From positions 1 through 28,556 of the IMG/VR virus record IMGVR_UViG_3300020445_000049: a stretch of 28,556 nucleotides of DNA. One strand, given 5' to 3'. Made by a program: the position numbers and the translations under genes. Below the pieces are notes generated by a model. It searched no databases, was not told where the DNA came from, and worked only from the letters and a program-made list of their open reading frames with translations. Below are positions 9,501 through 28,556 of this stretch, in pieces. The DNA is from a virus. Numbering within the stretch: the stretch's first letter is position 1; every line of letters starts with the position of its first letter.

Positions 9501-12500
9501 TTCTTATCCAGTCCTGTTGTTGGTGCTGCTGTATCAATAGGATTCTCAACAGCAATGCCAGCAATTTTATATTATTCTTTAGAAAAGGGTGGATATATTA
9601 GTACTGCTGATAAAGATGTTAATAATTATTCACGGATAGTATTTACTGACAGTAAGTATTCTGGTGATTATAAGATATTTGATGTTACTGATGAAACCTT
9701 TAAATTCTCACCTAGAGCAATTCCTGAAGTATTGAGATATGAAGAAGATCAATGTGATAAGATTGAATATTCTAGTAAGTCAGACTCTGTATCTGGACCT
9801 ATAAAGAGTATAAAATTAATTTCTGAGGGGTCTAGTTATAAGAAAGTACCTAAATTTACTAAAATTAATAGTTTAAATGGAACAAATGCTAATATTGTAG
9901 CATTATCAACATCTATTGGTAGAATTAATAATTTACGAATTGTTGATATTGGTTATGAATATTCTTCAGATTCTACATTGAGACCCGAAGCATTTATTTC
10001 ACCTGTTGTTAGAATTGATGATTTAGACTATATTGAGCAAATTTCTGTTGTAGATACTGGACGTGATTACTTAAGTCCTCCTGATTTGATTCTATACAAT
10101 CCAGAATCTAATGAGGTTGTTGATAGTACTTCATTAGAAGCTATTGCTCCAAATCAAGGTGTTTCTGACGTTGAAGTTATTGCTCCTATTAATGGACTAG
10201 ATTCTGTAACACATAGAGTTATTGCTGTTAACAATTCCAATGGAATTGGAATTAATTCCATGACTGTTGATGGAACTGAAGCTACTTGTGTTATGGAAAC
10301 TCCTATCAATGGATATACTGAAGCACCATTTGCTGTTAATGATGAAATTTTTGTTGAAGGTATACAGTTATTTGGAGAAACTGGTATTGGTACTCAAGCC
10401 TCATCATCTAGTGGTATATCAACCGATGGTGAAGGTTGGAATTCTTCAGATCATAATTATGAATATTTTAAAGTTACGAGTTATATTTCATCAAACCCAG
10501 ATGTTTTAAAATTTGATTTAGTTGGTTTAACGACTAATCCAGGTATTGCTAAAACTTATCAATCTGGTTATGCTAATATTGTAAACAGGAATAAGTTACC
10601 AGTATTCGCACCTATTCAAAAAAGATCTAAGTTCTTACAAGATGAACCAATATTGGTTAAAGAGAATCAAACAGGTACTTTCCAGAAGAAAGATCTTAAG
10701 GTAATAGAAATTAGAGAAGATTTTATTAAAACAACTGGATTATATAATCTTAGAGTTGGAGATAGAATTGCTGGACAATATAGTGGTGTTACTGCTAGTG
10801 TTACTGGAATTACAGCAAATACTGCTAAATTTGATGTTAGTTTCTCAAATAGAAAGGAAATAGGTTGGATTAATAATACTGGAATGTTAAATGAAGACTT
10901 CCAAGTAATACCAAATAATGATTATTATCAGAATCTATCATACTCTGTTAGAAGTTCTAAAACTTGGGAAACATTTGTTGATCCTCTTAATAGGGTTATA
11001 CACCCCTCTGGATTGAAGAATTTTGCCGATACGTTGTTAGAGACCAATGTTGATGTTCGGGTGGGTCTGGGATCCACAGAAGCATCAAAGGCGGTGATTA
11101 TACTTGATGTATTTGGTGAGAAGAGAGTAGATACTATTAATGACTTTGATCATGTTATAGATTATGATGCTAGAGATAATAAATCTAAGTTTATTGATTT
11201 CAAACATAAGAAGTTAACAGATTTTACTAAATGTAAAACAAATAGGGTTTTGATTCATGATGATATAAGTGGAAGGTTCTCAAGTAAAGGAGGACAGGAT
11301 CAATATACTGAAATAGAGGAAATTAATACAAACTTTACAAAGTATCATATACAAGTTGTTGATGCTGATACTTTTGATGTACAATTTACTGATTTAATCA
11401 CTCTTACTTCGACTAATAATGCTTATATTTTAGAAAGATCTACTGATTATTCAAATAATCAATTAGGTGAATTTAAGACTAATGTTGATTATTTTAATAG
11501 AAAAACATTAGAATTTACACCATCTGAAAAATTTGAAAAGGATTTTGATATTAAAGTTTTAAAAACATCATTTAATACTGATACTATATCTGATGGTTTA
11601 CAGGAAATTGGATCTATAGATCTAATTGGTAAAAATGTACAGGTTGCTGCTGCTCAAACAGCGATGAGTGGTAATACTGTCATTGTTACTGGTACAACTA
11701 CAACCAATATTTCACAATTCTCACCTACAGATTTCAACGCATTCTTTGCTAATGTTATGGTTAAAGATGATGCTTCTGGTGAGTTAGATTATAATGAAGT
11801 TATTGTTAATTTTGATGGTACAGACACATATATTACAGAATCATATACTGACGTTTTAGGTGTTACATATAGTTCTAGTGCTAATAGTAAAGTTGGTGTA
11901 TTAACTGCTAGATTTGATTCTGGTACAATTTACTTTGATTGTATTAATGATAGAACATCTAAATTACTTGTTAGTGCCAATATTGTTGGATTGGGTACTA
12001 CAACTGCTGGTATAGGAACATACAGGTATAAAGTTCCAGGACAACCAGACGGATCTGAAAGAACAGTAAGATATGAGTCAAACTATAATGCGGTAGATAA
12101 TGGAAATTCAATACCTGTTTTCACTCTTGACGGTACTGTTGATAGTTCAGCTAAGTGTTTACTAAAAGTTACTTCTGGGCAGAATAGTGCCATACATCAA
12201 GCAATCGTTATTCAAGATGTGAATAATGATGCTGTAACTGTTCAGTATCCTCATGTTGCAATCGGTGATCAAAGTGGTATAGGTACGTTTGGTACAGTTA
12301 CAGATACAATAAACAATACAGTTAGATTCGATTTCTATCCAGATGCAGCATATTCTTCTTCAACAGTTGAGGTTCAGGCTTATTCTGAGATATATCAAAC
12401 TGTTAATGATTTTGAGAATGAACCACCTCTTTTACAATTTGGTCCCGTAAGTACTGAATTGGTATTATCATCATATGATGGTCTTAATGGAACTAGAGGA

Positions 12501-15500
12501 AATAGAGTTAATTTTGATCTTAAGCATGAAGGTATTCCAATTTATTATAAGACATTTAATCCAGATAGCAGTCAACTTACTGTTTCTGCTGGTGCTGGAA
12601 CAACCTTCACTATACCAGATCATTTCTTCAATACAAATGAGAAATTAAATTATAATCCATATTCAACATTTATTGGTGTTGCTGCAGCACCTTGTGGTAT
12701 TGCTCAAACCACAAATAACCTTGGTCAATTGGTTACTGAAATGCCTTCAGAGGTATATGTTAAAGCATTAACACCAGATACTTTCCAATTATTCAGTAGA
12801 AAGGATTATATTGCTACTGGATTGCCAATAGAAGTAACAGATGTTGGTGGTGGTAATGCCCATAAACTTGAAATGGGTAAAAAGATAAGCAAGACTGTTA
12901 TTGGTCTTGATGGTATTATTCAACAACCAGTTACTTATACTTCAATTAGTCATACACTCCCAACTACTATCGGTATTGGATTATCTCAATTTGCTTTAAG
13001 TGGTATTAGTTCAGTACAACCAAGAGATGTATTGAAGATTGATGATGAATATATGAAAGTTGAAGAAGTTGGACTTGCTGAATCTGTAAGTGGTACAATT
13101 AATTCTTGGAATGGAACTATTCCAGTAGTTAAGGTTAAGAGAGGTTCTCTTGGAATCTTACCTACAACTCATAATTCTGGAGCTAATGTTCAGGTATACA
13201 GAGGATCTTACAATATAGTTGATAGTACAGCATGGTTCTTAGATCCACCTAAAGGTAATACTAGAACTAGAAGAAATTTAACTAATTTGCCTTATGTTAG
13301 AGCAGAATTTAGTGGAAGAACTTTCTTAAGAACAAATTATGATACCAATATGGTATTTGATGATATTTCTGATAACTTTACTGGAATTGGAAGAACTTAT
13401 AGTTTAACTGTTGGTGGTGCTAATACTTCTTCTGGTGTTGGTGTAGGAAATGGTATTCTGTTTATTAATGGAGTATTCCAGACACCATTAACACTTAATA
13501 ACTTAGGTAATAACTATGAAATTGAAGCAGATGTTATTTCTGGAATTTCTAGTGTAACATTTACTGGAATTAGTTCTGAAAATGGACAATTAATTCAATC
13601 TGAATTTGATATTAACCAGAATCAGGTTCCAAGAGGCGGTATAATCGTTTCTATGGGTTCTACTACTGGTGTTGGTTATGCTCCACTTGTAGGTGCTAGA
13701 GTATACCCCAAATTACAGAATGGATCTATAGTTAGTGTTACTGGTACTGGAACATCAATTGGACCAATAGGTGGTGGTATTCAAACTGCCCATTATGATA
13801 GTAATATTGGAATAATAACAGTTACTACTAATGAGGTTCATGGATTTGGTTTACAGAGTCCAGAGACTGTTAAGTTAGAGGGTCTACATTTTACTTGCCC
13901 AACATACACTATTGGTCAACCTATTACTGGTACAACATATGATCCAGCAACAGGTGATATGGTGATAAAGATTGTTGGTCATGGACTTTCAAATGGTGAT
14001 TCAGTTAAACTAAAAGAAGAATCAATTACATTTAGTTGTGGATTTGGTGGTGCTACTGGTTCTGCTGCTGAAAAGTCATACCCTAGAAAGACTGATCCTG
14101 CTTATGACAGATATATGTACATATCTGATGTTACTAATGATACTTTCAAGGTTAATGTATTATTTGGAATAACACCTACCAATACAGACGCACACACCTT
14201 TGTTGGAGCAACTCCTGATTGTGTTCAATCTCTAAACTATGTTGGAGTTACTACATCAATATTCCAAGATCATGAAAGATCACTTCCATTAGTTGGAGTT
14301 AGTTCTGCTAGAAGTTTCCAAGTTAATGTTGGTATTAATAGTATTCCACATATTTACTTGAAGGGTGGTGAAGTTTGGCGTTATGAGAATGAATTAACAT
14401 ATGGTTCTGGTTATCGTGAACCAGTTTCTATTGCTGTTACAGATATTGCTTATGATCATAAATTCGTAAAATCTGATGCTGATTCAATTACAGCATACAC
14501 TGGTGGATTCATGGGTCAATCATTGACACCAACAGCTATTGATTATACTTCACATAGTGGTGATTTATTAATGACCCTTGGTGAACATGGAATAGCAGGT
14601 CCAGTAGACATAACTGTTCAGGATGCTCAGTATGATGCTAGAGTTGGTATATTAACAGCTACTGCTGGTACACATTTTGATGTTAGTGGTGCTACATATG
14701 ATCCTACTACAGGTATTATGGTATTAACTATTGGTACTCATAGTTTAGATACCAATGATAAAGTTAAGATTAAGCCAAATTCATTAACATTTAGTTGTGG
14801 ATTTGGTGGTGCTACTGGCACGGCTGCTCAAAAGTCATATCCAAGAGCATCTGGTTCTGGTAATCCTAGTAGTGGACCTGACCCTGCTTATGATAATTTC
14901 TTAAATATAACTGCTGTAGATACTGTTGCTGGAACAATTTCTGTAAAAGTATTAGACACAACCCCATCATCAAACACAGATGTTCATACATTTGTAAGTG
15001 CTCTTCCTGAAGCAGTGTTTATTCCAAGAGTCTTTACTAATAATGAGCAAGTTAGATTTGCTGATAATTCTATAACATTTAAATGTGGTATGGATAATAA
15101 TGCCACTACCCATTCATATCCAAGATCAACAGATCCAGCAAGTGGTAAGTGGTTAATAGTATCTAATGTAACCCCAACACATTTTGAGGTTAATGTGGGT
15201 ACAAGTCCAATTGTAGGATATACACCAACAACAGGAACTACATATGATCCATTTACTGGATTAATGGTGTTGGAGATTGGTACTCATACCTTAAAACAGG
15301 GTCAAAGTGTTAGATTGGATCCAGAATCAATATCATTCAGTTGTAACTATGGTAGCGGTGGTACAAAGTCTTATCCTAGAGCTTCTAATGATCCATTCTA
15401 TAATACTGCTATTCCTATTCAGTCAGTAACTGATACTACTATTACACTACAAGTATTATCCACTGTACCTTCTACTAATACAGATGTTCATACATTTGAA

Positions 15501-18500
15501 GGTGCTACTCCGAATGCTGTTAAAGCTGGTGGATTCTATCCTCATACATTTGATTCTTCAACTGCTAAAGGTACTGAAGCAACAAAATCTCTTAAAATTG
15601 CTACAAATTCATTAACATTTACTTGTTCTAAAGATGATCATGATGGTGAGCATACTTATCCAAGAACAACTGATCCAGCATATGATGTTTTCTTACCAAT
15701 AACAGCAGCGACTCAAAATACACTTATGACCAATGTAGGTCCTGGTGGTGGTGCTGGTACTGGAGCAGTTATAACTGCTAAGATTGCTGATAATACTCAT
15801 AAATTTGTAAACGCTATTGGTACTCACATATACAAGAGTTCTATAAGTGATGCTGTTACTATTGGTAGCACTAAGAAGGATGTTACTAATGCTGCGTATA
15901 CTCCAAGTACTGGAGTATTGGTATTAACCATAGGAACCCATACTTTCAGTACTAGTGATACTGTAACTATCGCACATAAAGCACTTAAGTTTACTTGTGA
16001 TGCTGATAATCATGCTACAGAACATGCTTATCCAAGAACGACTGATCCAGCATATAATACAGCGTTAACAATTACTGCTGTAGATCAATCTGGTGGTACT
16101 ATTACATGTAATGTAGGTATTCCAAGTCAATATGAAGGTATAGAAAATTCTGGAGGTGCTTTAACTGCTGATACTGTTGATTACGATCCACAATGTGGAA
16201 TCATGACTGTTACAACATCTGCTGCTCATGGACTTACTGCTGCTATTATTAAGAATTCAACAAACGCAGTATATAATCCAAATGTTGGTATATTAACTGT
16301 TACTACTAATACGAATCATGGGTTTAGTAATGGTGATTATGTTAAGATTGCTGAAAATTCATTGATATTCAAGTGTGCTAAAGATGGATTCTTAAGTGAG
16401 CATAGTTATCCAAGAAAAGGAGATCCATTGTTTAATACATGGACACCAGTTTCAAATGTAACTCCTAAGAAGTTTGAGGTTCAATGTTTACCTTCCGTAC
16501 CTTCAACAAACACATCAGATCATAGTTATGAGAGATCTGAAGCTGGAAATATTATGGGAGCAAATAGTACAGTTAAATTTGTTGGCGGTTCCTTAACACT
16601 TACATGTAATAAGGATCGTCATGCTACAAATCATTCATATCCAAGACCAACTGATCCTGTTTGTGGTTATGAAACTATCTACGGTCCTACTTACAGTATT
16701 TCTCCAGTAAACAGGGTTAGATTACAGTCTGGTACATATACATTCACTTATAATACTACAGTTGTAGGAACGAGTGCTACCAGTTCACTTATAGTTGGTA
16801 ATACAAGATATAGTATTGGTGCATTAGCAGTTGATACTGGTTCTGCACAAGTATATGAGATAGAGGTGGGAGAACTTAGAACTGTAGGTGTTGAAGGTGT
16901 TGAAAGTACTACTAAGTTTAGTGTTAATGTTGGTAGATCTCCATATGGAACTGGTGGATCTTTAGAATTTACTGTTGTAAGTGGTGGAACTGGATATGTT
17001 AATCCTGAAATTATCACTCCACAACCAAATTATGAAAATATGCCAGTTAAAGGTGTATCTAGATTGGGTATTGGAAAAACAACAGATACTGGAGTTAATC
17101 TTCTACTTAACTTACAAGTAGGTGCTGCACAAACTTCTGTTGGAATATCTTCTACATTATTTGAAATATCTAATTTTGATATTGCTAGACCAGGACATTC
17201 GTTTAAAATTGGTGATAGATTTACTCCAATTGGAATGGTTACATCAGCAGAAGTTGAAGAACCATTAAAAGACTTTGAATTGGAAGTTGTTGAAATATTC
17301 AACGATTTCTTCTCCGCATGGCAATTTGGTGAAATTGATTTTATTGATGATATCAAATCAATGCAAAATGGAATTAGAAGAAGATTCCCATTATTCTTCA
17401 ATGGACAGTTATTGAGTTTTGAAAAGGATGAAGCAGATCCATTATCTTCAGATATTAATTTAAATGCGGTTCTCTTGATATTTGTGAATGGTGTACTACA
17501 AACACCAGGAACTGCTTATCAGTTTGAAGGTGGAACCACATTTACGTTTACTGAAGCACCAGATACTGGTGATAAGGTTGATATATTCTTCTATCTTGGA
17601 CAAAGAGGTATTGATGTTGAAATTATTGACATTCAAGAAACTATAAAACCAGGTGATGATGTAAGAATATATCGCCATCCATCATTACCAGATTCAATTA
17701 CACAAGACAGAGAAAGAGTTGTAAAAGAAATTCTAACTTCTGATTTGATTGAAACTGATGTATATTCTGGTTTAGGTATTAATGAAGATGATGATAAACC
17801 AGTTAGTTGGACTAAGCAAAAGGTTGATAAGGTTATTCAAGGATCTTTAGTTTCTAAAGCAAGAGAATCTATTGAACCTTGCGTATATCCAACTGCGAAG
17901 ATCATTTCAGATGTTAATGAAACTTCTGGTATTGGTCTAGGATTACAGGATGGAATATTTGTAGATGATGCTGAATTCTTCTTCTATGAGGAAGGACCGC
18001 TTCGTATTCCTAGTTCTGAAAGATATGGTATTACAGTTGATGCTATTGATACATTAATGATGCCAGTAGGTGGTGAGAAAAGAGCAGCAGCAGCAGAAGT
18101 TGTTATTGGTACTGCTACATCACAGGTTAGTTCAATAACTATCACTGATGGTGGATCAGGTTATACAGTTGCTCCTACTATTAAGATATCAGCTCCACCA
18201 ATGATTGGTGTTGGAATAGGAACTACTGCTACAGCAACAACAACAATTGTAAATGGTTCTGTTACATCAGCAACTGTTACTAATGTTGGATTCTATACAG
18301 GAAGAGTACCAAATGTTATTATTGAAAGTCCTACTTATGAGACAGAAAAAATTGAGTTATTTAAGTTTGCTCAAGGATTTACTGGAATAATCACAGGTAT
18401 TGGAACTGCTGTTGGAAGTGGTGGACATCCACTTGCTATTAAGTTCTTCTTTAAGACTATTGATGGAAATCAGGCAGGTGATTTAAGAATTGGATATCCA

Positions 18501-18923
18501 ATTTCTATTAAAGATACTAAGATTGGCGAAGGTGTTACCTCCGTTGATAGCCACGATACTTCAGTTGTTGGTATTGGTACAACATTCTTAGATAATATAT
18601 ACAAAGTTCACAGTATTACTACTGCTGATAAAACAGGTGAGATTACTTGTAACATATTAAGTACAACTAATCATGTTGGATTAGCTTCCACTGGACAGTA
18701 TAATCAAACAAATATTGGAATAACAACTTCTCTAGGAACAATTTCATGGGGAAGATTGTATGGACCAGATACAGTTAGATCAACAAATCCAATCTCAATT
18801 GGTGTTACTGGATTAACTATTGACTCTGGATTATCTACTTTCCCAGTTATTCAAAGGAGAAATTATTCTCTAGGATCCCTCAAAGGATTAAGGAATACAG
18901 GTGCTATTAGATTACAAGTATAA
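3510..18923 (+). CDS. gp7: Giant gp7-like baseplate wedge/fibre protein (5137 aa)
   Basis: A single uninterrupted 5137-residue frame, over 500 kDa. Residues about 10-300 resemble, from my memory of T4 gp7, the C-terminal third of that protein: SFYQSKGIEESIKILFKLLY (205-224) matches T4 FYSTKGIEASYKFLFKVLY, and LVGQTIY (263-269) is identical. T4 gp7 is the elongated wedge protein that starts wedge assembly with gp10 and gp8. The rest is mostly repeated beta modules: several 'GxxY' units (xVxxxGxGYxxxP) around 770-1230, 2100-2200, 4490 and 4875; 'HGxxxGDxV' units; a YHYH-like domain with YDGIPIYGPYGY (1296-1307) and a second half starting NGR (1360); a conserved block around VIHPSGLKNFADT (H2498); 'NGVxQTP' units at N3320 and N4660; eight SYPR repeats (3474-4390). 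The C-terminus ends in a GLRNTG segment typical of cyanophage fibre-like proteins. Position between gp6 and gp8 is that of gene 7 in T4. The wedge role is well supported; host contact by the repeats is inferred. Confidence 0.85.
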   Translation: MSIEFDKRVQVNKIVESQLPEFVVADFPLTTDFLKQYYISQEFQGGPTDLIDNLDRYLKVDNLVPEVVTGTTTLSTDILSDDTTITVASTKGFPQEYGLLKIDDEIISYTGKTSTTFTGCIRGFSGISGYNVGISSSLLDVNKQTLKFDDTNASNHNINSVITNLSVLFLQEFYKKIKKTFLPGLEDETFYSGIDVGNFVKNARSFYQSKGIEESIKILFKLLYGVEAKVLDLEERLVKPSAAEFIRRETVIAEAISGNPYNLVGQTIYKSTDDRTTGSVSEVEILTRAGKTYYQLSLFVGFSDRDLIEGSFNIQAKTKALETISIGSSIISVDSTIGFDESGSILSENSDDIIEYTSKSVNQFFGCSNITSAIETGSSIRTTETVFGYEGGDLSQRCDLRITGVLSKFVPSEDISLVGEREEISVKNVGEVILNRGESYKELFANSWIYNTSSRYQIENVASNGQTSFTLLSTIDKSSLKIGDSITFLRRTAMTPMGGAIVKSIDYVTNSITVDNLSWSSGEPNPLADYDLRRNLNKAKTTSVGIGLSNSNVISDVLNVYVDGNKDGYVASNALPSYELNLQRFTSVISENVGLGVTFRDILDYPTFQDPISGFDSQYARINLPEPTKFISGNAVVYQTRDNLDDIGIPIDGLSDGETYYISVAEGSNKKGIALYNSISAIGSASSITMNPPVGAGHTHTHTFILKDHFNKMLYEDRILRKYPLAQDLSITTKGQKPINNIGMLINGTQIRSYVANETMSFGPLESIEVYNSGKDYDVANPPKLSIEAPLEYGGERAYAEPIIRGSVKEILVDEQDFDIDKVLSVSLVGGNGKGCLLEPVIGPRFREVEFDSRDIFFSGGLDIQEETITFKKDHNLVDGQLIYYNSNGQDPIGITKFKEASNVVTEWLVNGAPYYVRVINPKRIYLFKTPDDAMFGITGINTVGFSTATNAAGIHKFRLDSKNTLRSVRVLNSGYDFQYRKLPVHPSGISTSFDTVNFKNHGFRDGDLVEYTTMVGIGTTQPKAIQGLTVSTGISTTANFYHVLKIDNDSFRLSDAGIGGTSKVDYTRKKYVGLGSTGTGYQVFKYPDIEVNVNVSFASSISGKINFTPIVTGEIIGSYLYDGGSKYGSKVSGHYFTPKITIENGRTAEVRPIIESGKIIDVQVLNKGKEYWSLPDLTITDGGATGSGCKLKPVINEDGQLSDIVVINTGIGYSTNANVYVDPKGKNALLNASIRKLSIDNYQWQNENHLEKLNDDLLQFSVHAYTNTIAEELGDIGGVTGAGIGTHSSLIGWAYDGIPIYGPYGYTDPSDINSGIKRLLPSYVQKYDYKDRPTLHEYEEKFFVEDNIFDGSGDLDIHNGRFCKTPEFPNGVYAYFATVDQNGVPQYPYFIGESYRLPYIEENTVLDQSFDFGSSNLSRNTFPYKVNDINADNDFIIESNEVIKQKSVVESVTRGVVDTFQILDGGDGYKVGDFTVFDDEGTNGNGARGQVDEIVGIGVSSINTKLTTFEDAILVWNSNSEVMVHSLPSIELNDQDTVLISGLSTSIYKLNNSFKVGVSTDVIGLAKTMSVQNNSNGAVEDIYVNYIPNTVSIGGSLRVGDECLKVLNLFDVGSIIRVNRPTSGIAHTYGSKIDVLNNRISIPVKTNRFESDVNLIEFFNANLAVGVGTTCGSVVNYAIGESTKQVNIPSQNIYLPGHPFKGGEKIIFSKKPGAGSLLVGREIDASQQFYLPDQNTSVSELYVIDKGSDFIGLATNVGAANTEGGIFFYSNGSNDYEYKIETTFEQITCNVDRIVSTVTTKIGAANTTTHGLQNGDIVNVDVIPNTTVGLGSTAPLVLDYNEQYQKILINPVGFDGADVDTIKDTISITDHGYKNGDKVFYKCDGDVVSGLTTGCYYIHLVDSNKFNLSETYNDTFSSPPRMVDLSSSGNGHTISLVNPEISVVKNSQLTFGVGSFNLANYNLKFFYDKEFKNEFLTATDRNAFNVVGLGTIGIGTFLSSPVVGAAVSIGFSTAMPAILYYSLEKGGYISTADKDVNNYSRIVFTDSKYSGDYKIFDVTDETFKFSPRAIPEVLRYEEDQCDKIEYSSKSDSVSGPIKSIKLISEGSSYKKVPKFTKINSLNGTNANIVALSTSIGRINNLRIVDIGYEYSSDSTLRPEAFISPVVRIDDLDYIEQISVVDTGRDYLSPPDLILYNPESNEVVDSTSLEAIAPNQGVSDVEVIAPINGLDSVTHRVIAVNNSNGIGINSMTVDGTEATCVMETPINGYTEAPFAVNDEIFVEGIQLFGETGIGTQASSSSGISTDGEGWNSSDHNYEYFKVTSYISSNPDVLKFDLVGLTTNPGIAKTYQSGYANIVNRNKLPVFAPIQKRSKFLQDEPILVKENQTGTFQKKDLKVIEIREDFIKTTGLYNLRVGDRIAGQYSGVTASVTGITANTAKFDVSFSNRKEIGWINNTGMLNEDFQVIPNNDYYQNLSYSVRSSKTWETFVDPLNRVIHPSGLKNFADTLLETNVDVRVGLGSTEASKAVIILDVFGEKRVDTINDFDHVIDYDARDNKSKFIDFKHKKLTDFTKCKTNRVLIHDDISGRFSSKGGQDQYTEIEEINTNFTKYHIQVVDADTFDVQFTDLITLTSTNNAYILERSTDYSNNQLGEFKTNVDYFNRKTLEFTPSEKFEKDFDIKVLKTSFNTDTISDGLQEIGSIDLIGKNVQVAAAQTAMSGNTVIVTGTTTTNISQFSPTDFNAFFANVMVKDDASGELDYNEVIVNFDGTDTYITESYTDVLGVTYSSSANSKVGVLTARFDSGTIYFDCINDRTSKLLVSANIVGLGTTTAGIGTYRYKVPGQPDGSERTVRYESNYNAVDNGNSIPVFTLDGTVDSSAKCLLKVTSGQNSAIHQAIVIQDVNNDAVTVQYPHVAIGDQSGIGTFGTVTDTINNTVRFDFYPDAAYSSSTVEVQAYSEIYQTVNDFENEPPLLQFGPVSTELVLSSYDGLNGTRGNRVNFDLKHEGIPIYYKTFNPDSSQLTVSAGAGTTFTIPDHFFNTNEKLNYNPYSTFIGVAAAPCGIAQTTNNLGQLVTEMPSEVYVKALTPDTFQLFSRKDYIATGLPIEVTDVGGGNAHKLEMGKKISKTVIGLDGIIQQPVTYTSISHTLPTTIGIGLSQFALSGISSVQPRDVLKIDDEYMKVEEVGLAESVSGTINSWNGTIPVVKVKRGSLGILPTTHNSGANVQVYRGSYNIVDSTAWFLDPPKGNTRTRRNLTNLPYVRAEFSGRTFLRTNYDTNMVFDDISDNFTGIGRTYSLTVGGANTSSGVGVGNGILFINGVFQTPLTLNNLGNNYEIEADVISGISSVTFTGISSENGQLIQSEFDINQNQVPRGGIIVSMGSTTGVGYAPLVGARVYPKLQNGSIVSVTGTGTSIGPIGGGIQTAHYDSNIGIITVTTNEVHGFGLQSPETVKLEGLHFTCPTYTIGQPITGTTYDPATGDMVIKIVGHGLSNGDSVKLKEESITFSCGFGGATGSAAEKSYPRKTDPAYDRYMYISDVTNDTFKVNVLFGITPTNTDAHTFVGATPDCVQSLNYVGVTTSIFQDHERSLPLVGVSSARSFQVNVGINSIPHIYLKGGEVWRYENELTYGSGYREPVSIAVTDIAYDHKFVKSDADSITAYTGGFMGQSLTPTAIDYTSHSGDLLMTLGEHGIAGPVDITVQDAQYDARVGILTATAGTHFDVSGATYDPTTGIMVLTIGTHSLDTNDKVKIKPNSLTFSCGFGGATGTAAQKSYPRASGSGNPSSGPDPAYDNFLNITAVDTVAGTISVKVLDTTPSSNTDVHTFVSALPEAVFIPRVFTNNEQVRFADNSITFKCGMDNNATTHSYPRSTDPASGKWLIVSNVTPTHFEVNVGTSPIVGYTPTTGTTYDPFTGLMVLEIGTHTLKQGQSVRLDPESISFSCNYGSGGTKSYPRASNDPFYNTAIPIQSVTDTTITLQVLSTVPSTNTDVHTFEGATPNAVKAGGFYPHTFDSSTAKGTEATKSLKIATNSLTFTCSKDDHDGEHTYPRTTDPAYDVFLPITAATQNTLMTNVGPGGGAGTGAVITAKIADNTHKFVNAIGTHIYKSSISDAVTIGSTKKDVTNAAYTPSTGVLVLTIGTHTFSTSDTVTIAHKALKFTCDADNHATEHAYPRTTDPAYNTALTITAVDQSGGTITCNVGIPSQYEGIENSGGALTADTVDYDPQCGIMTVTTSAAHGLTAAIIKNSTNAVYNPNVGILTVTTNTNHGFSNGDYVKIAENSLIFKCAKDGFLSEHSYPRKGDPLFNTWTPVSNVTPKKFEVQCLPSVPSTNTSDHSYERSEAGNIMGANSTVKFVGGSLTLTCNKDRHATNHSYPRPTDPVCGYETIYGPTYSISPVNRVRLQSGTYTFTYNTTVVGTSATSSLIVGNTRYSIGALAVDTGSAQVYEIEVGELRTVGVEGVESTTKFSVNVGRSPYGTGGSLEFTVVSGGTGYVNPEIITPQPNYENMPVKGVSRLGIGKTTDTGVNLLLNLQVGAAQTSVGISSTLFEISNFDIARPGHSFKIGDRFTPIGMVTSAEVEEPLKDFELEVVEIFNDFFSAWQFGEIDFIDDIKSMQNGIRRRFPLFFNGQLLSFEKDEADPLSSDINLNAVLLIFVNGVLQTPGTAYQFEGGTTFTFTEAPDTGDKVDIFFYLGQRGIDVEIIDIQETIKPGDDVRIYRHPSLPDSITQDRERVVKEILTSDLIETDVYSGLGINEDDDKPVSWTKQKVDKVIQGSLVSKARESIEPCVYPTAKIISDVNETSGIGLGLQDGIFVDDAEFFFYEEGPLRIPSSERYGITVDAIDTLMMPVGGEKRAAAAEVVIGTATSQVSSITITDGGSGYTVAPTIKISAPPMIGVGIGTTATATTTIVNGSVTSATVTNVGFYTGRVPNVIIESPTYETEKIELFKFAQGFTGIITGIGTAVGSGGHPLAIKFFFKTIDGNQAGDLRIGYPISIKDTKIGEGVTSVDSHDTSVVGIGTTFLDNIYKVHSITTADKTGEITCNILSTTNHVGLASTGQYNQTNIGITTSLGTISWGRLYGPDTVRSTNPISIGVTGLTIDSGLSTFPVIQRRNYSLGSLKGLRNTGAIRLQV
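13929..16671 (+). repeat. Eight imperfect 'SYPR' protein repeats within gp7
   Basis: Eight copies of a unit of the form xSLTFxCxxD...HSYPRxTDPAYxxxLxIxxVTxxTxxVxV lie in gp7. The [STA]YPR motif starts at nucleotides 14076, 14835, 15114, 15369, 15654, 16026, 16404 and 16635 (residues 3523, 3776, 3869, 3954, 4049, 4173, 4299, 4376), mostly 77-126 residues apart with one 253-residue interval. Each copy has one Cys upstream of YPR. Five (units 3, 5, 6, 7, 8) have C-x2-D-x5-H-x-YPR. Most are preceded by a YDPxTGxMVLxIGTHxL segment, and several are followed by NTDxHTF. Units 1 and 2 share 32 identical bases (14028-14059 and 14787-14818), which points to recent duplication or gene conversion. The units look like tandem beta domains of a fibre. 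Confidence 0.85.
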
Positions 18924-20578: not shown

Positions 20579-23500
20579 ATGCCACAAAAGACTAATTTAA
20601 ATATAAGTCCTTATTACGATGATTTTGATAAGGCGAAGAATTATTACAAGGTTTTGTTTAAACCTGGGTATCCAGTTCAAGCAAGAGAATTAACAGGTCT
20701 TCAATCAATATTACAGAATCAAGTTGAATCTTTTGGTAATCATGTATTCAAAGAAGGATCTATGGTTATACCTGGATCTGTTACGTATGATAGTACATAT
20801 TTTTCATGTAAGGTAAATGGTGATCATCTAGGAATTGATGTTAGCATATATCTCGATGCTTTAGTTGCTGGTGAAGGTACACGAGTAAGAGGACAAAATT
20901 CTCAAATTGTAGGTAAAATTGTAAATTACATTTTACCACCAGAAGAAAATGTTGATGATATTACAATTTTTGTAAAATATACTGAATCTGATAGTACTGG
21001 AGAAAGTACACATTTCCCTAATGGAGAAATATTAGTACTTGATCAAAATGTTACTTATGGAAACACTACATTAGTTTCTGGAGATACTGTATTAACATTA
21101 AATAGTGAAAATGCTTCTGCAACTGGAACTTCTGTTGGGGTAGATTCTGGAGTATATTTCTTAAGAGGTGCATTCGTTGATACACCAAAATCTGTAGTTA
21201 TACTTGAGCCATATTCAACTAAACCATCATATAGAGTTGGATGGGAAATACTTGAAGAATTAGTTAATTCAAATGATGATCCTACTTTAAATGATAATGC
21301 AAAAGGTTTTACTAATTTTGCTGCTCCAGGTGCTGATAGATTTAAAATTGGTGTAAAATTATCTAAAAAAGCACTTGATGATTTTGATGATACTAATTTT
21401 GTAGAAGTATTACGTGTAAAGAATGGTGAAGTAAAGAAGATACAGAATAAATCTCAGTATAATGTTATTAGAGATTGGATTGCTGGAAGAACATATGATG
21501 AGTCTGGTAATTATGCCGTAAATCCCTTTAATGTTAGTGTTCAAAACTCATTAAATGATGAGATAGGATCTAATGGTAAGTATGTTGAGGGAGAAAAAAC
21601 TGATGAACTCAATACACCTAGTGATGATTTAGCATGTATAGAATTATCACCAGGTACAGCATATGTTAAAGGATATCAAGTTCCTTTAACTGGAACTACT
21701 GTATTGGATGTAGATAAACCAAGAGATACTAAAACTATACAAGCTGGATCTGTTCCTTTTAGGATGGGTAGTTTATTAAAAATTAATAACCCACATGGAA
21801 CTCCTTATATTAATCTTGGTGCTAATACAAGTAATGTTGCCAATACTGTAGAACTTTATAGTCAAAGAAAAGGAACTGGTGTTCCAACTGCTGGTAGTGG
21901 TACTAAAATTGGTGAAGCTCGTGTATATTCTTATGGATTATCTGATGCTAGTTATGAGGGAGATGATACAGAATGGGATCTATATTTGTATGATTTACAA
22001 ACATATACTCAATTAGAGATTGGAAATGGTGCTGGTGGATTAACATATCAGCAAAATACTCTAGCTCCACTTGGTTCTAAAGTTAGGGGAATGAGTAGTG
22101 GTGCTGAAGGATATGTTGCTGGTCATCCAAGTGCTGGTAATATAAACATCAGTGATACATCTGGTGCGTTTATTTCTGGTGAAAAGTTAGTATTTAATGA
22201 GAAAACAAGTAATGTTGGGGTAAATACATCTACAGCATCAGTTTCAAAGGTTACACAATATACTATTGATGATCTAAAGTCAGTTTTTCAGGCAAAAACT
22301 ATAGGTGGTTTTGGTAGTGGTGCTAAAGATTTTACTGCTGATGCAATTCTATATGATAGAATTTTACCTAATTTTTCTATAACAGATCAATTAAATATTA
22401 CTGGTTCTGCTAGTGATGCGTCAGCGACTTGTCCAAATAGAAGATTTTCTGGTGCTGTAGGGTTAAAAGTTGATTCTATAGTTGGATATAAAGTAGATTC
22501 TCAAGGTGATCCTGTTTATAATAGAGTTAGTGCTATTTCAGCAGATGGATCAACTTTAACACTTGATGATGTTGCTACAGTTGCTGGTGTTAATTATGGT
22601 GATATACCGTCAAATGGTACTACAGTTGCTTCTCTTTTTACTGTTAAATCTCCAAAAGTAATTAATTATAATCGTTCTGGATTATTTACTCAATTACCAA
22701 AAAGAAATGTATCTTCAGTAGATCTTTCTAATTCAAGTTTAGTAATATCTCGCCAAGTTTCAGATCAAACTGTAGCAGGTAATAGTCTACAACTTAAGAC
22801 TTCAATTGTTATGGAGAATTCTGGTGCTGGTGCTGCTTTAGGAATTACAACAGCATTCTTTGAACCATTTGATGCTGAAAGATATTCAATTCATTATTCA
22901 GATGGTACTACAGAACCTCTAACATCCGATCAGGTTAATATTACTGGTAATGGTAGTGTTATAACCTTTAGAAGTTTATCAAAGGCAACAGATAGTAATG
23001 TAGTTGTTAACACTACATTAAAGAAACTTGGACTTTCTAGTAAAGTTAAAAATTACATTAGAAGTTCTCAAGTTGAAGTAACAAAAACTATTAGTGTATC
23101 TAATGGATCTACAAATCTTGGAATTAGTAGTGCTTATGGACTAAGAGTTGAAGATAAGGAAATATCATTAAATGTTCCTGATGCTGTTAAGATTCATGCC
23201 GTATATGAATCTAAAGATACTAATAAACCAACTTTAGATGGTTTAGTTTTTGTTTCTGGATTAGGTCTTGATACGAATACATTTATTGGCGAAAAGATCG
23301 TTGGTTCTGAGAGTAGAGCGATAGCACAAGTTGTTAATAGAGTTTCTGATACAACAATTGAATATGTACCTTTAAATAGTAATAGTTTTATTAAAGGTGA
23401 AAGTGTTACTTTCAAAGAATCTCAAATTACTGCCAATCTACAAAGTTTGAATGATGGTAATTATGTTAATAGAACTAAGAATTATACCTTAGATAAAGGG

Positions 23501-26500
23501 CATAGAAAGCAATTTCTTGATTATTCTAGACTTGTAAGGACCGCAAATTCTGCTTCACCTTCTAAGAGATTACTTGTAATATTTGATTACTATGAGTCTG
23601 CTTTAAATACTGCTGGAGATTTCTATACTGTTAATTCATATACAAAAGATAGATATACCCATGATATTCCAATAGTATCTGGTAATAGATGTCAAGATAT
23701 TCTTGATTTTAGACCAAGAGTTAAAAAGTTTGAACCTACTGATGCAACTACTTCGTCACCATTCTCATATAATAGTAGAATACTCGAAACAACAACTAGG
23801 TATATTGTAACTCCAGATGAAAGTACCATTTTGGGTTATAGTTATTATCTACCTAGAGTTGATAAGCTTGTTATTAATAAGTTTGAAGAAGTTAAACTTA
23901 TTAAAGGTGTTTCTGATGACAAACCAGCACCACCAACAGAAGTTTCTGATTCAATGGAAGTTGCTCAGATAACATATCCACCATATCTTTATGATCCTAT
24001 CAAAGGACCTAAGATTAAGTTATATGATAATAGAAGATTTACTATGAGAGATATTGGAAAACTCGAAAAGAGGATTTCAAATCTTGAAGTAATGACATCA
24101 CTTACTGCATTAGAACTTGATACTAAATCACTTCAGGTTAAAGATGCAGATGGTATAGACAGATTTAAGAGTGGATTTGTTGTTAATGATTTTAAAAATA
24201 GAGATTTTATTGACTTTAGGATTGAAGATGGATCTAGATGTGATGTTGATGTAGTCAACAAAGAATTAATCAGTGCTGTTGATTTTTGGTCATTAAGAGC
24301 AGTATTAGCACTTAATCCAGGAATTGACGCAAATACTGCTGATATGACATCCAATTTGAGTCTTTTAGATCCAAATTGTAAAAAAACTGGAGATCTATTA
24401 ACATTAGATTATAATGAAGTTGATTGGATTGTACAACCACAAGCATCTGGTGTTGAGAATATCAACCCATTTAATGTTATAGTTTATGTTGGTGGTATTC
24501 AGTTAGATCCCCCTTCAGATAATTGGACTAGGACAATATATGTTGATAATCATAGAACAGAGTCTACTGGTAATACTTGGAATACAATATCTAATGTTGT
24601 TTCTGACACTACAGATGTTACTAGTTCAGTAGATGTAACAACAACTGAAGTTGAAGCAGATCAAAATACATTTAGTGGTAATCATACTGATACTACAACC
24701 ACAACCACAACTACTACAACACAAACAGTAGAAACAAGTTTTACTAACCAGATGACTGGTAATAATCAAGAATTTGATTATGTTGAAAGTGTTAAGATTA
24801 GTGGTGAAACAGATCCATTTATGAGATCTAGAAATGTTTATTTCGCTGCTAATGGTTTAAAACCATATACAAAACATATTCATAAACTTGATAGTGGAGT
24901 ACCTGATATATTCCCTAAAGTAGTTGAAATCTCAACCACTGCTGGATCTGGTAATGGATTTACAGTTGGTGAAGATGTAAAAGTTATGAATGGTACTGTT
25001 CAAATAGGTTTGGTTAAAGCACAAGCACCAAATCATAAGTTTGGAGATACATCTAGACCAGAATTTGCTGCGGGATTGGGTCATCCAGCAGTTACAGTTG
25101 AGACATATTCAGTTGATCCATTTGATAGAACAAGACCAGCACCTTCTAACGCTTATTCATCAACATCTGTATTATTTAATTGTGATATTAGTGAATTAGC
25201 GAATAATGAAAGTTATTGGGGATATGTTGTTAAGGGTGCAAAATTAATAGGAGAAACATCTGGTACTGAAGCAACAGTAACCAACATGGATCTCATGTCA
25301 GATAATTGGGGAGATGTTTTAGGAGCATTCTTCTTCAGAGATCCTAATCAAACACCTAAACCTTCAGTATTATTCTATACTGGAAAGAAAACATTTAGAC
25401 TTACTGCGAATACTACAGGAGCATTTGTTCCTCCAGGAAGTACTGCTCTTGCTAGTGATGCTAGTGGTACTTATAGTGGAACAGGTACTATTTTAACTCA
25501 AGTCACAGGTACTGTTGGAGTTAGAAATCCTCCCGAACCAGCACAGAAACCTAATGAAATTACTACTACTGTAAATGTAAATCAAACTTCAAGTACTGTA
25601 AGACAAGAAGCACCTTATAGAGATCCTCTAGCACAAACATTTACTGTAGATGAAACTGGAGCATTCTTAACATCATTTGATGTATATTTCTATAAGAAAG
25701 ATCCAAATGCTAAAGTATTTGTTGAACTTAGGGAAGTTGAATTAGGAACACCTACAAGTTTCCTTGTACAAGGATATGCTCAAGTAGCATTGAATCCTAA
25801 TGATATTACTACTTCAGATGATGCATCTGTACCAACTACAATTAATTTCCCATCACCTGTTTACTTAGAATCTGGTAAAGAATATGCTATTGTATTCTTA
25901 TCACCAGGATCTGATGAATATGAGATGTGGGTTGCTACTATGGGTCAAAAGAATGTTACTCCACCTGTAGGATTACCAGCAACAACTGATGATTCTCAGT
26001 TTGGTGTTGTAACTAAGCAGTACATTGGTGGTAGTTTATTCAAATCACAAAACGGTACAATTTGGACACCTAGTCAGTATCAAGATCTTAAATTTACTCT
26101 TAGAAAAGCAGCATTTGTTCCATCTGGAACTGTAACATTCTACAATAGTTCTATTCAATCTAATGGTGGTGGTACAGGTAGTAATGTAATGCCTTTGATG
26201 AGTAATCCCATCAGAACACTTCCCAGAAAACTTAAGTTTGGTTTAAGTAATAATGTTACATCTGTAGAACGTGCTTTATTACCTGTTGGTAGAAAAATAA
26301 GTACTGGTCTTGTTGCCGATACTGAAGATAATAGTATTACTGGTGTTATTGAAGATATAGCTGGACCTTTATTAGGAATTCAAGTTTCATCTAATGGTTC
26401 TGGTTACAATACTGGTGGTGCTTGGGGATCAGTTCCTGTTAAATCAGTTGATGGTAATGGAACTGGAGCAACTTTAAGTATAACCATTGCTAGTGGTGGT

Positions 26501-28123
26501 GCGATTACTATTAATAGTATAGGTGCTGCTGGTGGAGGTGGAAGTGGATATAGGGTTGGTGAAATATTAACAATTGATGTTGAAAATAGTAGTGATGTTA
26601 CTAATGGTGCTGGTGCTAGATTTACAGTAACTGATATTAAGGATGAAATTGATACACTTTATCTAACTGATGTTCAAGGAGAAAAGTTCGTTACTGGTGA
26701 TCAAATTATTCATTATGGAGCTGCTAATGATACAAGAACAACTCTTACAGGTATAACGGTTGCTTCTGATTCTGTAGTTACTAATGACATCTATTCAGGA
26801 AATGTTATTGAAGTAATTCAATATAATCATGGACATCATGGTGCTAATAATAGCATTAAAATTGAATCAATTGAACCAGATAGTATTAAAACTGCAACTA
26901 CAAACGATATTTCTGCTACTGATGTTGAGGTAAATGTTGCTTCAACAACACCATTTACATATATGGCTGGAATAACAACTGATAGAGGTGAAGCTTTATT
27001 AAATGGTGAGGTTGTATCATATGTTGTTGGTGTTAATAAGTTAGCATTAAGTGGAAGAGGACTTGAAGGTACGACTGCTATTTCGCATTCTTCTGGTTCC
27101 AGTATTCAACCATATGAAGTTAATGGTATGCCATTAACAAAGATTAATAAGACACATACTGTTTCAGTTAATCAAACTCTAAGAGATCTATCAAATATTG
27201 ATAATTATTACTTAGAACTTGATAGAGGAACTGGTAATAGAGCATCAGGTAAGAATCAATTAAACTTTATAAGTGAAAAAGCTGTGGGTGGAGATTGGGT
27301 TGGAATCTCTCAAAACCATCAATTTAGTAGTGCTTCTCCTCAGTTTAATGTAATTACTCCTGGTAAAGGAACTCGTGCTAGTGCTGCATTTAGAACCGTA
27401 AGTGGTACAAGTGCTAATGGAAACGAAGTATCATTCTTAGATCAGGGATTTGAACCAACTATTTTAAATGAAACCACATTCTTCCCAACACCTAGAATGG
27501 CAGCTTCTTTAGTTAATGAGGTAGAAAGATTAGATTCTCTTCCAAGAAATGCATCTCTTACTCTTAAAGTTGATATGACTTCTAATGATCCTAATTTATC
27601 ACCAGTATTAGATGCTCAAAATGCTACATTTATCTTAGGTAGAAATAAAATTAATTCTCCTATTGATGATTATGTAACTGATACTAGATCTACTCAATTA
27701 ATTGGTGATCCACATGGTTCAATATTTGTTACTAAAAAAGTTAATTTACAACAACCTGCAAGTTCAATAAGGGTTCTTGTTGCTGCTAATGTACAACCAC
27801 AAGCAGACTTTAGAGTTTATTATAGGTTGTATACTGCTGATTCTAGTGAAACATCTCAAGTTTATAGACCATTCCCTGGATATTCTAATTTAGTAGATAC
27901 CAATGGTGATGGTTATGGTGATAGGGTTATCGATCATGGAATGAATAATGGTAGTGCCGATGCTCAAGTTAAGAAGAGTGGGCAGAATGACTTTTCTGAA
28001 TACCAATTCACCGTTAATGATTTGGAACAATTTAGTGGATTTAAAATTAAAATTGTAATGTCATCCACTAATGAGTGTGTACCAGTTAGACTTAAAGACT
28101 TCAGAGCACTTGCTTTAGCATAA
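20579..28123 (+). CDS. Large DUF4815-type virion fibre/baseplate protein (2514 aa)
   Basis: The N-terminus (NISPYYDDFDKAKNYYKVLF, then PVQARELTGLQSILQNQVESFG) is that of DUF4815 phage structural proteins. Further landmarks: SGNRCQDILDFRPRV (about 1035-1049), a likely coiled coil starting MRDIGKLEKRISNLEVM (1156) followed by DGIDRFKSGFVVNDF, a Thr/Ser-rich linker with ten consecutive Thr (1372-1381), a conserved fibre domain from DPLAQTFTVDE (1682) to GGSLFKSQNGTIWTP (about 1820), Gly-rich GxxY units around 1940-1990, and a calcium-loop-like DTNGDGYGD (2440-2448). The last 200 residues end in KIKIVMSSTN and DFRALALA, a conserved finish in cyanophage relatives as I remember them. It lies directly after gp8, where T4 has gp9 and gp10, so it may be an outer baseplate or fibre component; the exact role is not known. 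No Shine-Dalgarno is visible; the start is seven bases after gp8 and matches the family N-terminus. Confidence 0.86.
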   Translation: MPQKTNLNISPYYDDFDKAKNYYKVLFKPGYPVQARELTGLQSILQNQVESFGNHVFKEGSMVIPGSVTYDSTYFSCKVNGDHLGIDVSIYLDALVAGEGTRVRGQNSQIVGKIVNYILPPEENVDDITIFVKYTESDSTGESTHFPNGEILVLDQNVTYGNTTLVSGDTVLTLNSENASATGTSVGVDSGVYFLRGAFVDTPKSVVILEPYSTKPSYRVGWEILEELVNSNDDPTLNDNAKGFTNFAAPGADRFKIGVKLSKKALDDFDDTNFVEVLRVKNGEVKKIQNKSQYNVIRDWIAGRTYDESGNYAVNPFNVSVQNSLNDEIGSNGKYVEGEKTDELNTPSDDLACIELSPGTAYVKGYQVPLTGTTVLDVDKPRDTKTIQAGSVPFRMGSLLKINNPHGTPYINLGANTSNVANTVELYSQRKGTGVPTAGSGTKIGEARVYSYGLSDASYEGDDTEWDLYLYDLQTYTQLEIGNGAGGLTYQQNTLAPLGSKVRGMSSGAEGYVAGHPSAGNINISDTSGAFISGEKLVFNEKTSNVGVNTSTASVSKVTQYTIDDLKSVFQAKTIGGFGSGAKDFTADAILYDRILPNFSITDQLNITGSASDASATCPNRRFSGAVGLKVDSIVGYKVDSQGDPVYNRVSAISADGSTLTLDDVATVAGVNYGDIPSNGTTVASLFTVKSPKVINYNRSGLFTQLPKRNVSSVDLSNSSLVISRQVSDQTVAGNSLQLKTSIVMENSGAGAALGITTAFFEPFDAERYSIHYSDGTTEPLTSDQVNITGNGSVITFRSLSKATDSNVVVNTTLKKLGLSSKVKNYIRSSQVEVTKTISVSNGSTNLGISSAYGLRVEDKEISLNVPDAVKIHAVYESKDTNKPTLDGLVFVSGLGLDTNTFIGEKIVGSESRAIAQVVNRVSDTTIEYVPLNSNSFIKGESVTFKESQITANLQSLNDGNYVNRTKNYTLDKGHRKQFLDYSRLVRTANSASPSKRLLVIFDYYESALNTAGDFYTVNSYTKDRYTHDIPIVSGNRCQDILDFRPRVKKFEPTDATTSSPFSYNSRILETTTRYIVTPDESTILGYSYYLPRVDKLVINKFEEVKLIKGVSDDKPAPPTEVSDSMEVAQITYPPYLYDPIKGPKIKLYDNRRFTMRDIGKLEKRISNLEVMTSLTALELDTKSLQVKDADGIDRFKSGFVVNDFKNRDFIDFRIEDGSRCDVDVVNKELISAVDFWSLRAVLALNPGIDANTADMTSNLSLLDPNCKKTGDLLTLDYNEVDWIVQPQASGVENINPFNVIVYVGGIQLDPPSDNWTRTIYVDNHRTESTGNTWNTISNVVSDTTDVTSSVDVTTTEVEADQNTFSGNHTDTTTTTTTTTTQTVETSFTNQMTGNNQEFDYVESVKISGETDPFMRSRNVYFAANGLKPYTKHIHKLDSGVPDIFPKVVEISTTAGSGNGFTVGEDVKVMNGTVQIGLVKAQAPNHKFGDTSRPEFAAGLGHPAVTVETYSVDPFDRTRPAPSNAYSSTSVLFNCDISELANNESYWGYVVKGAKLIGETSGTEATVTNMDLMSDNWGDVLGAFFFRDPNQTPKPSVLFYTGKKTFRLTANTTGAFVPPGSTALASDASGTYSGTGTILTQVTGTVGVRNPPEPAQKPNEITTTVNVNQTSSTVRQEAPYRDPLAQTFTVDETGAFLTSFDVYFYKKDPNAKVFVELREVELGTPTSFLVQGYAQVALNPNDITTSDDASVPTTINFPSPVYLESGKEYAIVFLSPGSDEYEMWVATMGQKNVTPPVGLPATTDDSQFGVVTKQYIGGSLFKSQNGTIWTPSQYQDLKFTLRKAAFVPSGTVTFYNSSIQSNGGGTGSNVMPLMSNPIRTLPRKLKFGLSNNVTSVERALLPVGRKISTGLVADTEDNSITGVIEDIAGPLLGIQVSSNGSGYNTGGAWGSVPVKSVDGNGTGATLSITIASGGAITINSIGAAGGGGSGYRVGEILTIDVENSSDVTNGAGARFTVTDIKDEIDTLYLTDVQGEKFVTGDQIIHYGAANDTRTTLTGITVASDSVVTNDIYSGNVIEVIQYNHGHHGANNSIKIESIEPDSIKTATTNDISATDVEVNVASTTPFTYMAGITTDRGEALLNGEVVSYVVGVNKLALSGRGLEGTTAISHSSGSSIQPYEVNGMPLTKINKTHTVSVNQTLRDLSNIDNYYLELDRGTGNRASGKNQLNFISEKAVGGDWVGISQNHQFSSASPQFNVITPGKGTRASAAFRTVSGTSANGNEVSFLDQGFEPTILNETTFFPTPRMAASLVNEVERLDSLPRNASLTLKVDMTSNDPNLSPVLDAQNATFILGRNKINSPIDDYVTDTRSTQLIGDPHGSIFVTKKVNLQQPASSIRVLVAANVQPQADFRVYYRLYTADSSETSQVYRPFPGYSNLVDTNGDGYGDRVIDHGMNNGSADAQVKKSGQNDFSEYQFTVNDLEQFSGFKIKIVMSSTNECVPVRLKDFRALALA
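24692..24721 (+). repeat. Run of ten Thr codons (ACN) in the DUF4815 protein
   Basis: Ten successive ACN codons, written with mixed ACT, ACA and ACC, encode T1372-T1381 within a longer Ser/Thr-rich stretch (about 1340-1390). The mixed codons argue against simple replication slippage and for selection on the protein. It separates the coiled-coil part from the downstream fibre domains, so it is probably a flexible linker. Confidence 0.8.
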
Positions 28124-28556
28124 TGATATCTTTTCAGGAATTTTTAGTTTTATGTGAGGGAGGTTTATCAAGATATCTTGGTAAGTCTGAGACTCATGAT
28201 ACAGGTCATTTATCACCTGATCGTGGTGATGATGAAAACGAAAATCGTAAAAAGAGAAGAAGTCTTGAAAAAGATTTGAAAAAGCACAGAATTGGTTATA
28301 GAAAAACAACTGGAAAATATAAGTATGAGGATGGAACTTCTGCTCGTGAAGTTTCTTATGCAACAACACGTCCTGCTGGAATGTCAAAAAGAGAATTTGG
28401 CAAAAGGATGAGACAACTTGGTGCTAAGTACGGTCAAGAGTCAGTTATTACAAAGAAAGCTGGTAAATCCGCTAGATTACATTATACTGATAAGAGTGGA
28501 AGAAGTCCTGATAATATAGGATCAGCAAAACCAGGTCCACATCCAGATGGTTATGG
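28123..28556 (+). CDS. Basic small phage protein with capsid-targeting-like N-terminus (partial)
   Basis: ATG at 28123 shares its A with the stop of the DUF4815 gene (TAATG), and the frame stays open for 144 codons to the right edge. The protein begins MISFQEFLVLCEGG and continues with a Lys/Arg-rich body: ENENRKKRRSLEKDLKKH, IGYRKTTGKYKYED, LGAKYGQESVITKKAGKSA. The pattern 'ExN...L..DL...G.GYrk..G.y ... lg.kygQeSV' is like small proteins I recall from cyanophage genomes, sometimes linked to DUF3293, whose function is unknown. The first 12 residues resemble the T4 internal-protein leader MKTYQEFIAE, and LCE/G fits the gp21 prohead protease consensus (L/I-x-E before a small residue). This suggests a protein packaged inside the capsid. 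There is no good Shine-Dalgarno, so translation is probably coupled. A minus-strand frame over the same bases is ignored. Confidence 0.75.
   Translation, partial: MISFQEFLVLCEGGLSRYLGKSETHDTGHLSPDRGDDENENRKKRRSLEKDLKKHRIGYRKTTGKYKYEDGTSAREVSYATTRPAGMSKREFGKRMRQLGAKYGQESVITKKAGKSARLHYTDKSGRSPDNIGSAKPGPHPDGY

Follow-up and report, generated by a model that had tools for sequence, protein, structure and literature searches.

A SAM lyase of marine T4-like cyanophages with a predicted capsid-targeting leader and prohead-protease site

We analysed IMG/VR virus record IMGVR_UViG_3300020445_000049 over positions 1 to 28,556 (this whole stretch of 28,556 nucleotides is hereafter referred to as the window), whose last gene (28123..28554, plus strand) encodes a protein of the phage S-adenosylmethionine (SAM) lyase family. 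The gene starts with ATG and is truncated by the contig end after 144 of about 169 codons, the full length of 169 amino acids being set from a 99% identical relative (L001). The explanation we favour, with a probability of roughly 0.77, is that this SAM lyase bears a T4-type leader, is packaged in the head, is cut by a gp21-type protease and is injected with the DNA, after which it breaks down SAM. The enzyme would be a late product of a P-SSM2-like marine cyanophage, encoded in a block of baseplate/neck genes, and the first 12 residues of the enzyme would serve as a T4-type capsid-targeting sequence that directs it into the prohead core. Cleavage after E12 (E12|G13) by a gp21-type prohead protease would yield a basic enzyme, of about 18 kDa when full-length, that lies beside the DNA. 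The enzyme would then enter the cyanobacterial host with the genome and, ahead of all phage gene expression, convert SAM to methylthioadenosine and homoserine lactone. Since a relative with the same kind of leader has been found in purified virions, these ocean viruses probably inject the SAM lyase into cyanobacteria along with the viral DNA.

The enzyme family was identified with profiles. Pfam PF23780 (S-AdoMet_lyase) matched residues 36-134 with 32 bits (cut-off 28), and the full-length relative L001 scored 31.8 bits against it. A sequence search of the Protein Data Bank (PDB) with the single window protein returned chance matches only; a profile of 24 relatives had Svi3-3 (6zm9) as its single sequence match, weak at an E-value of 0.32, with the active-site columns aligned. 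In this alignment G64 and Y66 (28312..28320, plus strand) correspond to G56 and Y58 of Svi3-3, E76 (28348..28350, plus strand) to E69, and Q105-E106-S107 (28435..28443, plus strand) to Q104-E105-S106. G64, E76 and Q105 are unchanged in the 24 sequences, at identities down to 29%, and G64 is invariant in alignment A1. Structural and mutational work has linked the Svi3-3 residues at the aligned positions to SAM binding, and the E69Q and E69A forms of Svi3-3 had almost no activity (PMC7877911). As judged from this alignment, every active-site residue of Svi3-3 is kept in the window protein, which shares the active-site G, Y, E and Q with both Svi3-3 and the SAMase of phage T3. An AlphaFold model of the protein had a mean predicted local distance difference test score (pLDDT) of 64, with residues 1-12 below 50. 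Foldseek with this low-confidence model gave six best matches that were all SAM lyases (6zm9, 6znb and 7ock, the last being T3 SAMase) at probabilities of 0.96-1.00, the best E-value being only 1.8e-3 and the TM-scores 0.30-0.59.

On these sequence comparisons, the window protein is a member of the phage SAM lyase family (PF23780). A first-pass annotation, made from the letters of the window without database searches, had called it a conserved 'hypothetical' family; the family can be identified, which that annotation had missed. A reading of the protein as merely basic and packed with DNA was dropped after the enzyme family and the active site had been recognised. Membership in DUF3293 (PF11697) was rejected at 22 bits, below the cut-off of 25. 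With both the Pfam and the PHROG profiles, the shared domain begins about 20-26 residues later in the cyanophage protein than in other SAM lyases, and for this reason we regard the leader as an addition to the SAM lyase.

The N-terminus of the window protein reads MISFQEFLVLCEGG, just as the first-pass annotation had given it, and the proposed likeness to the leaders of the T4 internal proteins (IPs) holds against the T4 record NC_000866, in which IPII and IPIII start with MKTYQEFIAE and IPI with MKTFKEF. The predicted capsid-targeting leader comprises residues 1-12 (MISFQEFLVLCE; 28123..28158, plus strand), with the core FQEFL at residues 4-8 (28132..28146, plus strand) and the predicted prohead-protease site L10-C11-E12|G13 (28150..28161, plus strand). 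Its pattern consists of the aromatic residues F4 and F7, the hydrophobic L8, a variable spacer and then [LIVM]-x-E|G. Residues 4 and 7 of T4 IPIII are important for targeting, residues 8 and 10 for processing (PMC9026906); the core residues F4, F7 and L8 are kept in the window protein. The remainder, residues 13-144, is basic, as had been noted, with 31 K+R against 17 D+E and an isoelectric point of 10.0. The window protein resembles T4 IPI, IPII and IPIII in its aromatic-x-x-F-hydrophobic core, its (L/I)-x-E type site, its basic mature part and the occurrence of a gp21-type protease in phages that hold the gene. Unlike the T4 proteins, it has an enzyme of the SAM lyase family as cargo instead of a small inhibitor, its site lies at E12, and its module is internal to a long open reading frame (ORF) in many relatives.

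Leaders of the window clade follow M-x-[ST]-F-Q-[EQ]-F and end in E-G-G, close relatives having MKTFQEFL. Among 27 clade members, the ratio of nonsynonymous to synonymous polymorphism (pN/pS) was 0.08 for residues 4-8 and 0 for E12-G13, in comparison with 0.58 for the spacer (residues 9-11), 0.58 for residues 14-24 and 0.34 for the enzyme core. F4, Q5, F7, L10, E12 and G13 never vary in these members despite silent changes, and E12 and G13 are invariant in alignment A2 as well. We also gathered 62 non-redundant environmental relatives by using the Glu-Gly/Glu-Ser-Ser junction as an anchor, a selection that leaves only the result for P3, two residues before the invariant Glu, independent. P3 was L in 42, I in 15, V in four and M in one, which accounts for all 62 and agrees with L10-C11-E12 before G13 as a predicted cleavage site. 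The aromatic core was present in 58 of the 62, at a distance of 2, 4, 8 or 11 from the Glu. T4 IPI likewise differs from IPII and IPIII by an elastic spacer between a conserved core and a conserved site, its leader being longer and its site later.

A homologue with such a leader has been found in virions. Mass spectrometry of S-CREM2 virions purified on CsCl detected ORF6, annotated as a SAM hydrolase, through 19 unique peptides (26% coverage); the authors of that study already proposed that it enters the host and guards against restriction, with capsid targeting unmentioned (PMC10665884). ORF6 is a clear PF23780 member (E-value 2e-19) with 37% identity to the window protein and the leader MKDFDSFLEE; unlike the window protein, it has 414 amino acids with a C-terminal extension. 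A motif defined from the T4 residues matched four of the 219 S-CREM2 proteins, namely ORF6, ORF14 (kinase-like), ORF136 and ORF154 (nucleotidyltransferase). All four belong to the 28 non-structural virion proteins (P = 2.2e-4, or 1.9e-3 with ORF6 excluded), and a relaxed motif matched five virion and five non-virion proteins (P = 0.004).

The same leader occurs on an enzyme with an unrelated domain, the T4-GC190 nucleotidyltransferase/NMNAT family, which has been found in the virions of S-SM1 (PMC3037559), S-SCSM1 (PMC9602691) and S-CREM2 (PMC10665884). In seven aligned orthologues, 38-78% identical to the first, the only invariant residues of the first 100 columns are M1, F4, F7 and E10; the virion-proven leaders read MKSFLQFLKEA in S-SCSM1 and MKKFSAFLNEA in S-SM1. 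Because no SAM lyase homologue was detectable in S-SM1 or S-SCSM1, these two proteomes bear only on this other cargo family. In the stretch of S-SCSM1 that was read, one of eight virion proteins and none of 49 others had the leader, which alone is not significant (P = 0.14). Over seven phage genomes, the strict leader pattern followed 21 of 1702 start methionines and 11 of 6691 internal ones (P = 3e-8); its occurrence at the start Met exceeds chance. Leader-bearing proteins of the same genomes are virion proteins wherever published proteomes cover them; the first-pass annotation had suggested a comparison of this kind.

Other proteins share parts of this arrangement. A second small leader-bearing gene, encoding 84-86 amino acids, lies close downstream of the SAM lyase gene in L001 (L001:6641-6895; leader MKTFKHFLEEA; no Pfam or PHROG match) and in P-SSM2 (100269-100529; leader MKSFKQFLEEA). 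In four nucleotidyltransferases (L055, L046, L075 and L090; alignment A3) the leader is followed by a module R-x-GL-x-GDGHG-x-W...AKT-x-KG-x-L-x-F, and this GDGHG module recurs in ORF12 and ORF14 of S-CREM2; its sequence suggests a shared second packaging or delivery module. ORF12 (L034:7704-10313), a virion protein that has this short module in common with the kinase and nucleotidyltransferase cargo, is annotated as Cas9, a name that looks doubtful; it has no Pfam match and carries a leader-like LRFASFMAEA at residues 17-26. An alternative start of ORF12 at this internal leader was unsupported, the codon being CTG.

A gp21-type prohead protease homologue was found in 17 of the 18 phage records that hold the SAM lyase gene, the exception being a 66 kb fragment. 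AG-345-F15, the closest single-virus relative (its SAM lyase is 76% identical to that of the window), has a clear Peptidase_S77; the window, a 28.6 kb fragment, is without a gp21-type protease. The first-pass annotation had read the protein as capsid cargo, and had named leader conservation, virion proteomics and the protease as places where that reading could fail. All of its in-silico routes to refutation were run and none refuted it, and at the level of sequence its interpretation is supported.

Several observations weigh against packaging and injection. G14, L15 and R17, just behind the junction, are no less invariant than the leader, so that of the expectation that the leader would be more conserved than what follows it, only the conservation of the leader elements held; moreover, 15.5% of the 5-codon windows of the gene match the conservation of the leader core, and conservation alone is not decisive. 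The aromatic core is missing in four of the 62 relatives. The acidic P1 residue lies at E12, unlike E10 of T4 IPII and IPIII, in which respect the cleavage motif departs from the model first put forward. The structure model is of low confidence (pLDDT 64). The S-CREM2 data speak only for the presence of ORF6 in the virion, and they would apply to the window phage by analogy. In both S-CREM2 and S-SCSM1, the majority of the non-structural virion proteins have no such motif. When leaders of T4 and of the family were used to train a graded score matrix, the matrix overweighted the family-specific Q5/E6, ignored the cleavage Glu and gave poor ranks to the S-CREM2 virion proteins (rank tests at P = 0.15-0.16, with 0.15 for N-terminal offsets, and a best Fisher P of 0.017). 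Because this matrix separated them poorly, we base the association between leader and virion on the T4-defined motif and its four matches only.

The lost aromatic core and the conserved residues after the junction would also fit an ordinary SAM lyase whose action has to await its synthesis in the infected cell, as in T3, which expresses its SAMase before any other protein once infection has begun (PMC8406200); the leader likeness would then be coincidental or reflect a structural helix. We consider this improbable. T3 SAMase is made early, whereas the window gene sits among structural genes, with its start overlapped by one base by the TAA stop of the upstream gene (TAATG, 28121..28125, plus strand). 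The same one-base overlap precedes the SAM lyase gene of P-SSM2, which is 62% identical to that of the window, and the arrangement suggests that translation of the SAM lyase may be coupled to that of a late structural gene. Also contrary to an enzyme of the T3 kind, the S-CREM2 homologue was detected in the virion, the leader is modelled apart from the fold with very low confidence, and the motif is common to other virion cargo. A packaged SAM lyase, as we propose, could already act at DNA entry, a point too early for the T3 enzyme.

The upstream gene (20579..28123, plus strand; 2514 amino acids, phrog_358), given here as context only, is homologous to ORF124 of S-CREM2, for which 450 peptides were reported from the virion of that phage (PMC10665884). 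The window, which also carries the baseplate genes gp25, gp6 and gp8, represents part of the genome of a T4-like cyanophage that is close to P-SSM2 (Kyanoviridae, Salacisavirus). In the window clade the SAM lyase gene immediately follows a large virion gene and has baseplate genes nearby, a position that would suit a virion protein bound to the tail or baseplate outside the head, with the leader as a tail dock. This neighbourhood is not fixed, however: depending on the phage, the SAM lyase gene lies between the terminase subunits or among replication/metabolic genes. The leader, in addition, matches the T4 residues of head targeting, and we regard tail attachment as very improbable.

If the SAM lyase is packaged and injected, its likely benefit would be to starve SAM-dependent defence (restriction-modification, BREX or SAM-AMP signalling) or to reset host methylation. 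By analogy with T3, and with T4 IPI, which works by a different route, we take anti-restriction as the default. The small number of restriction systems in many Prochlorococcus genomes weakens the case for anti-restriction as the sole purpose. It is also conceivable, if rather unlikely, that the enzyme is packaged as proposed and is directed at the type III CRISPR messenger SAM-AMP or put to metabolic use, which would be compatible with the explanation favoured here. A Clostridium botulinum relative of the phage SAM lyases prefers SAM-AMP to SAM (PMC10600005); the phage enzymes Svi3-3 and T3 SAMase, on the other hand, cleave SAM itself (PMC7877911).

In 29 of the 62 relatives the SAM lyase module lies within a longer frame, and it frequently forms the last part of an ORF of several hundred residues, as in S-SZBM1_194 and P-TIM40_113. 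The internal modules retain the [LIVM]xE|G junction even without the aromatic core. Sites of the form [LIVM]xE[GAS] are more numerous in the upstream parts (42) than in shuffled sequences (28.2 +/- 4.9), a result that is only suggestive because the sequences are related. A 69-amino-acid protein of S-SCSM1, annotated as a virion protein, resembles the N-terminal module of S-SZBM1_194 by eye. Long SAM-lyase-holding ORFs composed of basic modules and short Glu-rich linkers were seen at L015:2387-4510, L025:1195-3504 and L027:1903-3519 and in L163 and L180. By sequence, the long modular ORFs resemble polyproteins, with [LIVM]xE sites as potential points of cleavage. We tentatively suggest, at somewhat less than even odds, that marine T4-like cyanophages have a general system of capsid targeting and protease release that serves a varying repertoire of injected enzymes, among them the SAM lyase, the nucleotidyltransferase and a kinase-like protein, and that in many of them the cargo is a polyprotein cut in the head at [LIVM]-x-E|G, with one gene giving several effectors. 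The polyprotein form, if true, would be a new way to load several effectors at once.

Phage SAM lyases, T4 capsid-targeting leaders and one virion SAM hydrolase with the idea of its injection were already known. The new elements are the conserved leader and protease site on the SAM lyase family, the occurrence of this leader on further virion enzymes and the placement of the module inside polyprotein-like frames; in the open-access literature we found no earlier statement linking capsid targeting with cyanophages. Kyanoviridae are widespread in the ocean, and their virions contain many 'hypothetical' proteins that await an explanation. With a readable tag, injected effectors could be predicted from sequence alone, and the recurrence of enzymes in cyanophage virion proteomes would be accounted for.

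Some observations on relatives of the gene and on the window itself complete the analysis. Alishewanella phage Slicko01, a non-cyanophage with a gp21-type protease in its genome, encodes a SAM lyase relative (L017:4004-4609) with the leader-like start MNFEQLLESEINALSE-SSLSR. In P-SSM3 an unannotated SAM lyase frame (L031:3001-3380) is apparently broken after 63 residues; the copy in its close relative P-SSM4 is intact. In the window, a 2OG-Fe(II) oxygenase gene (440-1063) lies next to the baseplate genes, and a single ORF of 5137 amino acids with repeated stretches (3510-18923) lies between gp6 and gp8.

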